This document shows positions 54,959 through 59,771 of a stretch of 64,000 bases of DNA, in pieces. Where the stretch lies: assembly GCA_024103135.1 (NCBI GenBank), contig JAGFIZ010000098.1, positions 1 through 64,000 of the forward strand, in the 5' to 3' direction. Both the position numbers and the translations under genes were made by a program. The DNA is from Bradyrhizobiaceae bacterium (GTDB lineage Bacteria > Bacteroidota > Ignavibacteria > Kapaibacteriales > Kapaibacteriaceae). Numbering within the stretch: the first letter of the stretch is position 1; each line of letters starts with the position of its first letter. The notes beneath the pieces were generated by a model that saw only the letters and a list, made by a program, of their open reading frames with translations, was not told where the DNA came from and did not search any database.

Positions 54959-55052
54959 ATTCACTGTAGACCGAGACGTTTCCCACACTCGATGTGGAAA
55001 ACGGCGCGATTGTTGCTGCACTACGTAGACTGTGAAGTATGGGAGAGATATT

Positions 55053-56486
55053 GTGACGCGATCATTACCCGTTTTTGTACTCTGCCTTGCGATGGTTGTC
55101 GGCACGGCAGATGCTCAGCAGTACCCAGGCGAGGTCTCCGGCTGGCTTTCTGGCGTAACGCATAAGTATAACGGGGACTTCAGTGACGATAGTTGGGGGG
55201 CTGGACTCATGGCCTCCTTGCAATATGCGCCTATCAAGCGCCTTGGCATCGAAGCACGGGTAGGACTTGGGGAATACCGGTGGAAAATCGGGAATGCCGA
55301 CATTGCTTCGCATCCAGGGTACTACGGCTTGGGTAGCCAGATTGGGGATAACTACCCAGGCACCCTCACCGAGATTGAGCGGGAGAACGAGAGCAGGATC
55401 ACCACTGTTGATCTGCTGATCAACTATAACCTGGTTGACAACATCGCAGCCATTCCCTTTATCTCTGCTGGGGTGGGCCTCATTGACTACGCTCCGTCAA
55501 CCGACCAGGTGCATGATCCACTGCCAAACTTTTCGACGCAACAATATCAAGGGTCATGCGCCAGCATACCAATTGGTGGCGGCGTACGCATTCCGTTCTC
55601 CTACCGAGCAGGTATCGTCCTCCGTGGCGAGTACCGGTTTGTGTTCTCACAGTTCCTGGACGATGTAAACTTCAATGGCGCGAATGATGGACTGACAAGT
55701 GTCTCACTTGGCTTCTCCTATCGCTTTACCAATCCGCCGCGCCGATGCATGCCATGCCTACCGCCGCATAAGCACAAGCATCCGCACAGCAATTGTGCCT
55801 GTGAAGCTCATCCTGATCATGCCATTGGCGACTGTCCATGTGCACGACTTCTCGAGTCACCAGGCCAACACGACGATCACGATATACGTGGTAATGGTCA
55901 GGACGATTCCAGCAAACCAAATAGCAGGTCCGATAGTCGTGGAAGCGGACAGCAGAACGACGCAAACGATGGCGGTTCCGAGGCAGTTCCTGAAAGTCAC
56001 GGCACACAGTCCAAACCCGATCAGGATACCGTTGGAACTGGCTCCGCAAAACAACGCAGTACACAGCCCCCTTCCACCAAGCCTGCCGCTCCGACTTCAA
56101 ATGAATCGCAGGATCAGGGATGTCCGGAAGGACTCGTAAGAGAGTGTATCGACAAGGTCACGGGTGAAGGCATTTGTGTTGATCCCACGTTCAAACCAGG
56201 TCCTAGTAGAATCGTTTGGGAAGACGCCTTGATCTATGAACAAGGAAGCTCGGAGAACGGCAAGACGCTTCGGTCGGTTGGAAGAGACAATCCATGTTAC
56301 GCCGTTGTGGTGCGTCAGCTACCCAGCTCCTTCTATGCCTGCATTGACTGCTGCTTTGAAAAGCAAGCATCCGGAAGTTCGTCGATCTACAATCCTATTG
56401 GGACGGTGAAGATCGTGAAGGGACGCGGAACGTTCTCGCCAGAGAAGTGTGCTGAGTGCGGACAAGATTCGGCAGAGGGCAAGTAA
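55053..56486 (+). CDS. Outer-membrane beta-barrel protein with polar C-terminal extension
   Basis: About 477 residues. Signal peptide TRSLPVFVLCLAMVVGTADAQQ, then an eight-strand-like barrel (QYPGEVSGWLSG, GLMASLQYAPIKRLGIEARVG, GLTSVSLGFSYRF). After the barrel come a Cys/His-rich stretch (RRCMPCLPPHKHKHPHSNC, then CACEAHPDH and GDCPC), a long Ser/Asn/Gln/Gly linker (about residues 270-350) and a last domain with six cysteines (GCPEGLVRECIDKVTGEGICVDP, FYACIDCCFEK, KCAECGQ). It has no OmpA domain, unlike its neighbour. Start is a GTG, with GGGAGA 7 bases upstream; an in-frame GTG at 55032 is less supported. Paralogue of 56490-58052 in its barrel. Confidence 0.8.
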   Translation: MTRSLPVFVLCLAMVVGTADAQQYPGEVSGWLSGVTHKYNGDFSDDSWGAGLMASLQYAPIKRLGIEARVGLGEYRWKIGNADIASHPGYYGLGSQIGDNYPGTLTEIERENESRITTVDLLINYNLVDNIAAIPFISAGVGLIDYAPSTDQVHDPLPNFSTQQYQGSCASIPIGGGVRIPFSYRAGIVLRGEYRFVFSQFLDDVNFNGANDGLTSVSLGFSYRFTNPPRRCMPCLPPHKHKHPHSNCACEAHPDHAIGDCPCARLLESPGQHDDHDIRGNGQDDSSKPNSRSDSRGSGQQNDANDGGSEAVPESHGTQSKPDQDTVGTGSAKQRSTQPPSTKPAAPTSNESQDQGCPEGLVRECIDKVTGEGICVDPTFKPGPSRIVWEDALIYEQGSSENGKTLRSVGRDNPCYAVVVRQLPSSFYACIDCCFEKQASGSSSIYNPIGTVKIVKGRGTFSPEKCAECGQDSAEGK

Positions 56487-56489
56487 CCC

Positions 56490-58052
56490 ATGATGCGCCT
56501 TTTCCTGGTTGCCATCATCATCGTATCAGCAGTAGGTGAGTTGACTGCACAGGTGCGTCCAGGCGAAGTCGTCGGTACGCTCTCCGGGTCTGTGCTCAAA
56601 CTTCATGGCGACTTTGATGACGACGTGTTCGGACCTGGCGGGCAGGTATCGATCCAGTATGCTCCGATGCGTCGGCTCTTCCTCGAACCACGCTTCGGTG
56701 TAGGCCGAACATCGTGGAAGATTAGCCCATACGATGTTGCCAATCATCCAGACTACTTCGATTTATACGGCACTCAAACACAGCCATTGCTGACCAACGC
56801 CGATTCGGTATACAAGAACAGTGTGGACTTTATCAATGCCGACCTGTTGGTGAACTATGTTCTGGTGCCGAATATTCCATCCGTCGTATTCCTTACCGCA
56901 GGTGTAGGGTACATGAATTGGGGCGCCTATTCACCAAATGGTGAGTTGCTTCCCAATCGCACAGCTGGAGTCTATCAAGGCTCAGCCGTGACCATCCCTC
57001 TTGGCGCCGGTGCAAGAATCCCCTTGTCGAATCGCTTCGATCTTATGGTACGCCTCGAACACCGACTCGTATTCTCCGATTGGGTTGATGATGTGCGTTT
57101 CCTGTCAGGCAACGACGCTTTTACAACGGCATCACTTGGCTTTACCTACCGATTCACTTCGGCGCCACGTCGACCAAAGGATTGGAAGGGGGCTAGGGAA
57201 CACCGTCAACCCGACTGTGCAGATTGCATGCAGCACCCGCCATACTCAATTGGCAACGGAGACGAGTGCAAGGATTGCATACCATGTGACGAGCTACCAT
57301 GCTGTGACGATTACGTATCGTGTTGTGAGGACTGTGAACCATGCATGGGTGAATGCTGCGTATGCTGCTGCACTGACTGTTGTATGTCATGTCCATGCTG
57401 TTATGCCTGTTGTGGATGCCATTGCTGGCCACCAGCACCGGCAGTGCCCGCCGCTCCCGCACCAGCCGCTCCTGCACCAGCCACTCCTGCGCCAGCCGCT
57501 CCCGCACCAGCTGCTCCTGCACCAGCTCCTGCACCAGCGCCAGCACCTGAACCCGAACCAAGTGAGGGTGCCGCACCTGAGCAGCCAGCACCAGAGGCAC
57601 CAGCAGAACCATCGGTTGATACGGAATCAAAGCCGATTCCGACTAAACGTTTTGCCAAGGATATCCGATTCAAACTCGATACCGATGAGTTTGATTTTAG
57701 TCAGCCACAAACTCAGCAGAACCTTGACGAATTGTTGGAGTACATGAAGGAAGCACCGTCAGGGCATGAGGTGATCATCGAAGGCCATGCATCAAGCGAA
57801 GGTCCGCCACAGCGCAACAAGGATCTCAGTCAGATGCGTGCAAAGAAGATCAAGGAATACCTCATTCAACATGGCGTAGACCCATCGAAGATTCGCGGTG
57901 CCGTTGGCTACGGCTCATCGGTTCCTAAGGTCGACGAGCCCTCTCCAGACCAGGTAAAAACCATGTCGCCCGAAGAGGTCGAACGTATTCGTGCACAGAA
58001 CCGACGCATCGAGATCAACGTGCTTAAGGATGCCTATGCAAAGGGAACGTAG
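56490..58052 (+). CDS. Beta-barrel protein with 25-Cys domain, Pro-Ala linker and OmpA domain
   Basis: A 520-residue protein. After a signal peptide (RLFLVAIIIVSAVGELTAQ), residues 25-230 form a barrel like that of the previous gene (QVSIQYAPMRRLFLEPRFGVG, SLGFTYRFTSAPRR). Residues 243-313 contain about 25 cysteines in 70 positions, mostly CC and CxxC pairs (CCDDYVSCCEDCEPC, CCVCCCTDCC), likely a metal-binding or disulfide-rich surface. Then follow Pro-Ala repeats coded by a 15-base unit (57429-57604) and an OmpA domain with FKLDTDEFDFSQPQ and NKDLSQMRAKKIKEYL, which would clamp peptidoglycan. The start could be 56490 or 56493. Three bases separate it from the previous stop. Confidence 0.85.
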   Translation: MMRLFLVAIIIVSAVGELTAQVRPGEVVGTLSGSVLKLHGDFDDDVFGPGGQVSIQYAPMRRLFLEPRFGVGRTSWKISPYDVANHPDYFDLYGTQTQPLLTNADSVYKNSVDFINADLLVNYVLVPNIPSVVFLTAGVGYMNWGAYSPNGELLPNRTAGVYQGSAVTIPLGAGARIPLSNRFDLMVRLEHRLVFSDWVDDVRFLSGNDAFTTASLGFTYRFTSAPRRPKDWKGAREHRQPDCADCMQHPPYSIGNGDECKDCIPCDELPCCDDYVSCCEDCEPCMGECCVCCCTDCCMSCPCCYACCGCHCWPPAPAVPAAPAPAAPAPATPAPAAPAPAAPAPAPAPAPAPEPEPSEGAAPEQPAPEAPAEPSVDTESKPIPTKRFAKDIRFKLDTDEFDFSQPQTQQNLDELLEYMKEAPSGHEVIIEGHASSEGPPQRNKDLSQMRAKKIKEYLIQHGVDPSKIRGAVGYGSSVPKVDEPSPDQVKTMSPEEVERIRAQNRRIEINVLKDAYAKGT

Positions 58053-58962: not shown

Positions 58963-59021
58963 TTGCCTTTTCCGTAAGCTTGTTGTTTGTTACAAGCCCA
59001 CTAACTACCTATTGGAGAACC

Positions 59022-59771
59022 ATGCAACGCTTTTTAGTAGTCGCATTTGCCGTCGTTTGCGCAACGCTACAACTCCGTGCCATCACATTGGATGAAATCG
59101 TAGCAAAACACCTAGAAGCCCGTGGTGGGTTACAAGCCATTACCGCCTTGCATTCACTCAAGATCGAAGGTAGCATGACGATGCAAGGGATGGATACCAA
59201 GTTTACACACTACTTCAAGGATGGTAAGGTGAGACTTGATGTAGAAGTCATGGGACAAGCCATGACTCAGGCATTCGATGGCAAGCAAGCATGGGTCAAG
59301 ACGCCTCAGGAAGAGAATGCAAGAATTGCACCGGAAGAGCAGACAAGTAGAGCAGCCGCAGAGGCGGACTTCACTGGAGCGTACGTGAATACCAAATCCA
59401 AGGGAATCAGTCTTGAGTATGTTGGCACCGTGGATGTAGAGGTGTCAACAGATGCCGGATCGCCAGAGACAACTACTGCGTACAAAATCAAGGTTACGCA
59501 TAAGGACGGCAGCACAAGCTACAGTTACATTGATGCCGTTACATGGATGGAAGTTCAGACGGAAGATGTGATCGACATGGGCGGTGAGAGCATGACCATC
59601 AAGCGAGCTTACACGGATTACAAGCCCGTTGCCGGAGTTCAGTTCCCTATGCTCATCAATGTGTTCTACAATGGCAATGTGGCGCTTACCATGAAGCGTA
59701 CAAGCACTGACGCGACCACAGCAATTGACGATGCGCTGTTTGCAGTTCCTGCCGGCGCAAAGAGTGAGTGA
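59022..59771 (+). CDS. LolA-like exported protein
   Basis: A 249-residue protein with signal peptide MQRFLVVAFAVVCATLQLRA. The mature part starts with HLEARGGLQAITALHSLKIEG, a common opening of outer-membrane lipoprotein-sorting-like proteins, followed by beta strands: TKFTHYFKDGKVRLDVEV, KQAWVKTPQE and VTHKDGSTSYSYIDAV. The start is the ATG with GGAGAA upstream; an in-frame TTG at 58980 is unlikely. It may handle lipids or lipoproteins, as suggested for the family, but no partner is seen. Confidence 0.82.
   Translation: MQRFLVVAFAVVCATLQLRAITLDEIVAKHLEARGGLQAITALHSLKIEGSMTMQGMDTKFTHYFKDGKVRLDVEVMGQAMTQAFDGKQAWVKTPQEENARIAPEEQTSRAAAEADFTGAYVNTKSKGISLEYVGTVDVEVSTDAGSPETTTAYKIKVTHKDGSTSYSYIDAVTWMEVQTEDVIDMGGESMTIKRAYTDYKPVAGVQFPMLINVFYNGNVALTMKRTSTDATTAIDDALFAVPAGAKSE

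Follow-up and report, generated by a model that had tools for sequence, protein, structure and literature searches.

The protein encoded by gene B carries one of its segments, a run of 70 residues placed between a predicted outer membrane beta-barrel and a C-terminal OmpA domain, in which 25 residues are Cys. The gene lies in the window, the stretch of 64,000 nucleotides that was analysed as a whole, and its Cys tract is conserved at a syntenic locus in related genomes; a Cys tract has also arisen independently in another family. It is possible that the tract of gene B is a periplasmic Cys/His spacer holding several metal ions of the soft or borderline kind (Zn or Cu class). This reading, drawn from sequence comparison, is tentative, with a probability of roughly 45%, and is narrowly favoured over that of a disulfide cross-linked spacer.

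Gene B and its tandem partner

Gene B (56,490 to 58,052; all features of the two genes are on the forward strand) encodes 520 aa from an ATG start. Its first 21 residues (MMRLFLVAIIIVSAVGELTAQ; 56,490 to 56,552) read as a likely signal peptide, for which a crude hydropathy test was also positive. The predicted outer membrane beta-barrel follows at residues 22-222 (56,553 to 57,155) and ends in FTYRF. As to the N-terminal 8-strand barrel expected of OmpA/OprF-like proteins, the Pfam model OMP_b-brl matches residues 6-222 below threshold, with an E value of 1e-5 and 26.1 bits against a cut-off of 28.7 bits; one gene A from the sister genus passes this cut-off with 29.6 bits.

The preliminary description, made from the letters of the window, had noted about 25 Cys in 70 residues between the barrel and the OmpA domain, and this proved exact. 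All 25 Cys of the protein are within residues 243-312 (57,216 to 57,425), with zero elsewhere, and they are encoded by 13 TGC and 12 TGT codons. On an assumed background of 1.25% Cys, the binomial probability of at least 25 in 70 residues is approximately 1e-29. Among all six-frame ORFs of the window, the runner-up stretch of 70 residues has 13 Cys and is in a shadow frame.

Two further elements of that description, a Pro-Ala arm coded by 15-base repeats and an OmpA domain beyond the tract, were recovered as a tandem repeat and a Pfam match. The arm, rich in Pro, Ala and Glu, occupies residues 314-375 (57,429 to 57,614), and the 15-base repeat underlying it is present in 6.1 copies (57,450 to 57,538). 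The OmpA C-terminal-like (peptidoglycan-binding) domain is at residues 400-488 (57,687 to 57,953), where PF00691 matches with an E value of 1e-15 (58.3 bits, cut-off 27.2). A scan of genome contigs returned just an OmpA-domain match, and the top PDB match for the domain is 5u1h, an outer membrane porin F.

Diaminopimelate is contacted by an Asp, an Asn and an Arg in OmpA domains (PMC7192894 and PMC5974059). Aligned to the solved domains, gene B keeps the Arg (R450) and the nearby Asn and has Ser (S435) at the position of the usual Asp, as is the case for 19 of 19 among the OmpA-type members with the motif listed. The peptidoglycan wall anchor proposed earlier is thus upheld at two positions of this site and not at the third. 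The substitution weakens the case for an anchor more than it does the assignment of the OmpA fold, and binding of this domain to peptidoglycan is likely rather than assured.

Gene A (55,032 to 56,486), absent from the preliminary description, ends 3 bases before gene B begins, and the two probably share one transcript. It is a tandem paralogue of 484 aa, with a barrel 44% identical to residues 9-256 of gene B, a short Cys/His patch at residues 239-270 (CMPCLPPHKHKHPHSNCACEAHPDHAIGDCPC; 55,746 to 55,841), a low-complexity linker and, with no OmpA domain, a C-terminal domain of its own (CPxGxxREC...GICVD...IxWE...; 56,121 to 56,483). This domain has no Pfam match and is found in 5 of the 395 genomes of the phylum sample, only in the genus of the window (g1) and its sister genus (g3). 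The g3 version reads CPxGQHRECFGPPGFGICVD...IRWELA...CKECK.

No Pfam family matches the Cys tract of gene B, including the metallothionein and other metal-binding families. When the tract alone was used as the query in a search of the phylum the sole match was the tract itself, which suggests that it diverges too fast for sequence search. A multihaem cytochrome or haem conduit is ruled out, as no CxxCH motif can be read in residues 243-312. Nor are (TGY)6 poly-Cys runs a general feature of these genomes: among 30 matched loci examined, of many more matches, those in long ORFs (>400 aa) were all at the FolD-RluA-Adk-RlpA locus, and the others were in ORFs below that length, among which several looked like shadow frames or were simple repeats. 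AlphaFold was run on two proteins of the window and gave a pLDDT of 36.6; the model was not used. A literature search found no paper on such a Cys-tract protein.

Distribution and conservation of the tract

The gene order FolD-RluA-Adk-barrel gene(s)-RlpA-LolA-like is syntenic in the family relatives, within reach of the contigs and stretches compared, and genes A and B are both situated between Adk and RlpA. The barrel comparison took in 35 barrel proteins from 20 genomes; the Adk-RlpA slot of G006, G008 and G011 (loci L120, L121 and L122), where the sequence is partly N, was left out. Adjoining RlpA in the window, and conserved with the locus, is an exported protein of unknown family (58,980 to 59,771) with weak, sub-threshold similarity to DUF4292 / T9SS plug.

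The A-B tandem pair is present in g1 and g3, except in the divergent g3 member G016, which has a single B-type gene, and in G020, where the contig begins at B. Within a pair there is usually one long tract (13-25 Cys) and one short or absent Cys patch, with the long tract in gene B in g1 and in gene A in g3. Long tracts often end in CCCCCC, and that of G021 reaches ten consecutive Cys. The short patch in most g3 B genes consists of CxxCxC, a gap, and CCC. The patch of gene A is minimal in G001 and G003, with two Cys, and the gene A of G004 has no Cys at this position. The barrel tree sorts the sequences in part by genus and species and not by their A or B type, as could result if the two neighbouring genes had undergone gene conversion or exchange. 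Genera g4, g5 and g6 have one gene in the same slot, with a spacer made of calcium-type TSP3 DxDGDG repeats. With the long tract changing from one paralogue to the other, and TSP3 repeats taking its place in other genera at the one locus, the evolution of spacers between outer membrane and wall becomes directly comparable.

Conservation of the Cys was checked in the relatives, where the tract is kept under purifying selection. For the gap-free clade of g3 gene A sequences (G012, G014 and G022), the dN/dS of the tract is 0.08-0.14 and 18 of 18 Cys are kept, with p = 0.03 for Cys against other residues in this clade alone. When five pairs from separate clades are pooled, 76 of 88 Cys and 109 of 174 residues of other kinds are kept (p = 5e-5). 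Alignment programs tend to place Cys opposite Cys, which makes the gap-free clade the more reliable of the two. In the short motif of g3 gene B, conservation extends to 18 of 18 Cys and to 12 of 24 other residues (p = 3e-4), and there is no clear Cys preference in the close pair G050 and G122 (17 of 19 Cys, 39 of 47 others).

An independent case is found in genus g25 of family f9. All 7 of its genomes encode a different barrel followed by 10-19 Cys per 70 residues and a Gly/Pro linker. Where the gene is complete, an OmpA domain closes the protein; the contig of G118 ends earlier. No Pfam barrel model matches the barrel-like N-terminal part. A Cys tract thus stands before OmpA in a second genus, whose barrel is unrelated, and is a solution that has recurred at the same place in the architecture.

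In at least one g25 genome, G120, the tract again occurs in a tandem pair of OmpA-type proteins (L123; 2,116 to 3,642 and 3,742 to 5,640, both on the reverse strand). They have the unrelated barrel type, and a Cys tract with 10 Cys per 70 residues is found in each. His-rich stretches come after the Cys tract at the g25 loci L096, L097 and L123, such as HGGHPHVVGHGDHPPIGGHGDHP in L097.

An assembly frameshift and unconserved low-complexity sequence had both been raised earlier as ways in which the tract might prove unreal. The frame of gene B is open and conserved, with no sign of a frameshift, and this, with purifying selection in the relatives and recurrence in g25, rules out both. The Cys tract is neither an artefact nor drifting low-complexity sequence.

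Possible roles of the Cys tract

In layout, gene B encodes an OprF/OmpA-like tether, made up of the predicted outer membrane barrel, a spacer that would lie in the periplasm and an OmpA domain probably meeting peptidoglycan. The spacer is dense in Cys and His and nearly devoid of a hydrophobic core, leads into the flexible Pro-Ala arm, and sits where the orthologues have calcium-type TSP3 repeats. Its Cys thiols would be the working groups and, if the tract binds metal, the ions would be held through Cys and His. The bound metal may shape the otherwise core-less segment and would be buffered just beneath the outer membrane, on its inner side. Within the A-B pair, one gene usually has the long Cys patch and the other the short one.

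Reduced, metal-binding thiols are favoured by the His enrichment, the Cys spacing, the odd Cys counts, the lack of DsbB and VKOR and the presence of DsbD. Among the non-Cys residues near the Cys, the share of His is 7.4-7.8%, compared with 1.6-1.7% for the barrels. This enrichment, approximately four-fold, is also found in the independent g25 lineage, and the ILVMF content around the Cys is halved. CxxC (z 7.6) and i,i+5 spacings are enriched in the tracts and CxC is not, with z-scores that are inflated by the relatedness of the sequences compared. The number of Cys is odd in 12 of 19 long tracts. DsbB and VKOR were each found in none of the 23 family genomes, although the controls matched; DsbD was found in all 23, in 22 of them above the cut-off. 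DSBA is present in 12 of these genomes and absent from the source genome.

Against metal binding are the lack of a match to any Pfam metal family, the unenriched CxC, the absence of a recognised metal-resistance gene beside the A-B pair and the all-or-none Cys pair of the OmpA domain described below. His is missing from a few of the long tracts (G004, G015 and G017), and its enrichment would also fit a linker that is simply polar and flexible. It is somewhat unlikely that there is a class of metallothionein-like periplasmic modules, anchored at the outer membrane, which evolved at least twice as OmpA-type spacers and store or buffer soft metals at the inner side of that membrane in hosts without the usual disulfide oxidases. 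The preliminary description had listed metal sequestration, a redox relay and a disulfide-bonded spacer as roles; the sequence evidence leans to the first or the last, and for a redox relay nothing was found specifically in support.

The leading alternative, itself a tentative one, is that inter- and intramolecular disulfides mesh A and B, and perhaps their neighbours, under the outer membrane. The density and position of the Cys are kept while the nearby sequence varies, Cys patches are usually present in both tandem partners, and pocket pairing, as in the hypothesis for chlamydial Cys-rich proteins (PMC7589890), would suit the CC pairs and the stretches of as many as ten consecutive Cys. There is also a Cys pair in the OmpA domain that is all-or-none, with both Cys present in 14 of 14 proteins from g3 to g6 and both absent in 6 of 6 from g1. 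This coupling implies periplasmic oxidation and points to disulfides being made in that compartment in the family. The pair is lost only in the genus whose gene B has the long tract, which would fit avoidance of mispairing with stray Cys. However, such a mesh would have to form in a family with neither DsbB nor VKOR in its 23 genomes and DsbD in all of them, and in a source genome without DSBA. The tract is kept with or without DSBA, and disulfides leave the His enrichment unexplained.

Considerably less probable is a switch of the OprF kind, in which disulfides of the spacer would tip the C-terminal half towards one of two forms, a closed tether of two domains or an open barrel with a large pore. 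Disulfides shift the balance of open and closed forms in OprF (PMC10960818), and the CxxCxC...CCC of the sister-genus gene B would be a comparable small cluster, but 25 Cys are far beyond what this would need, and in g3 the long tract is in gene A, which has no OmpA domain to rearrange. Near-neutral expansion of a tolerated Cys patch by slippage at TGY codons, with no specific function, is the least probable reading and already disfavoured: runs of 5-10 Cys do differ in length between relatives, and several clades show little retention of the non-Cys residues, yet dN/dS is about 0.1 in the alignable clade, Cys are kept above other residues, and the tract recurs at the same architectural position in another family.

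It is the combination of a conserved envelope segment that is one-third Cys with a family lacking any recognisable DsbB or VKOR that gives the tract its interest. Were the thiols loaded with metal, there would be a metal buffer at the outer membrane. Were they oxidised, an unrecognised oxidase or spontaneous oxidation would be needed, and there would be a disulfide mesh outside the Chlamydiae. To our knowledge, neither has a precedent in such bacteria.

Comparison with known systems

Metallothioneins have Cys as about one third of a short polar segment, as in the gene B tract, and CxC spacing is typical of them. The tract differs in having no Pfam match and no CxC enrichment, and in being exported as part of a larger membrane protein.

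In terms of function, the disulfide reading is best compared with the chlamydial outer membrane complex (MOMP, OmcA/OmcB), which shares with gene B the presence of Cys-rich proteins at the outer membrane. Function in these proteins has been linked to clustered Cys, with Cys-rich pockets rather than single residues thought to pair (PMC7589890). No similarity of the chlamydial proteins to the gene B Cys tract was found, and the 9 Cys (2.4%) of MOMP are in the barrel itself, unlike those of gene B. A DsbA/DsbB pair has been reported for Chlamydia (cited in PMC7589890), whereas no dedicated oxidase, DsbB or VKOR, was found in the 23 family genomes.

Nearer relatives are the TSP3-OmpA proteins of G009, G010 and G013, which are encoded at the orthologous locus and have a homologous barrel and OmpA domain. 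They differ in being the product of a single gene and in having DxDGDG calcium-type repeats in place of the long Cys tract.

The closest known layout is that of OprF from Pseudomonas aeruginosa, which has a barrel where gene B has a predicted one, and likewise a Cys-containing spacer and a C-terminal OmpA domain. Its four Cys form two disulfides that affect the open and closed forms (PMC10960818), against the 25 Cys of gene B, which in addition has a Pro-Ala arm and is paired with a tandem gene that lacks an OmpA domain. The order of barrel, Cys tract, arm and OmpA domain was described correctly at the outset, but the layout as a whole, then held to be unlike classic OmpA, is a known one of the OprF type, and it is the Cys-dense spacer alone that is unusual.
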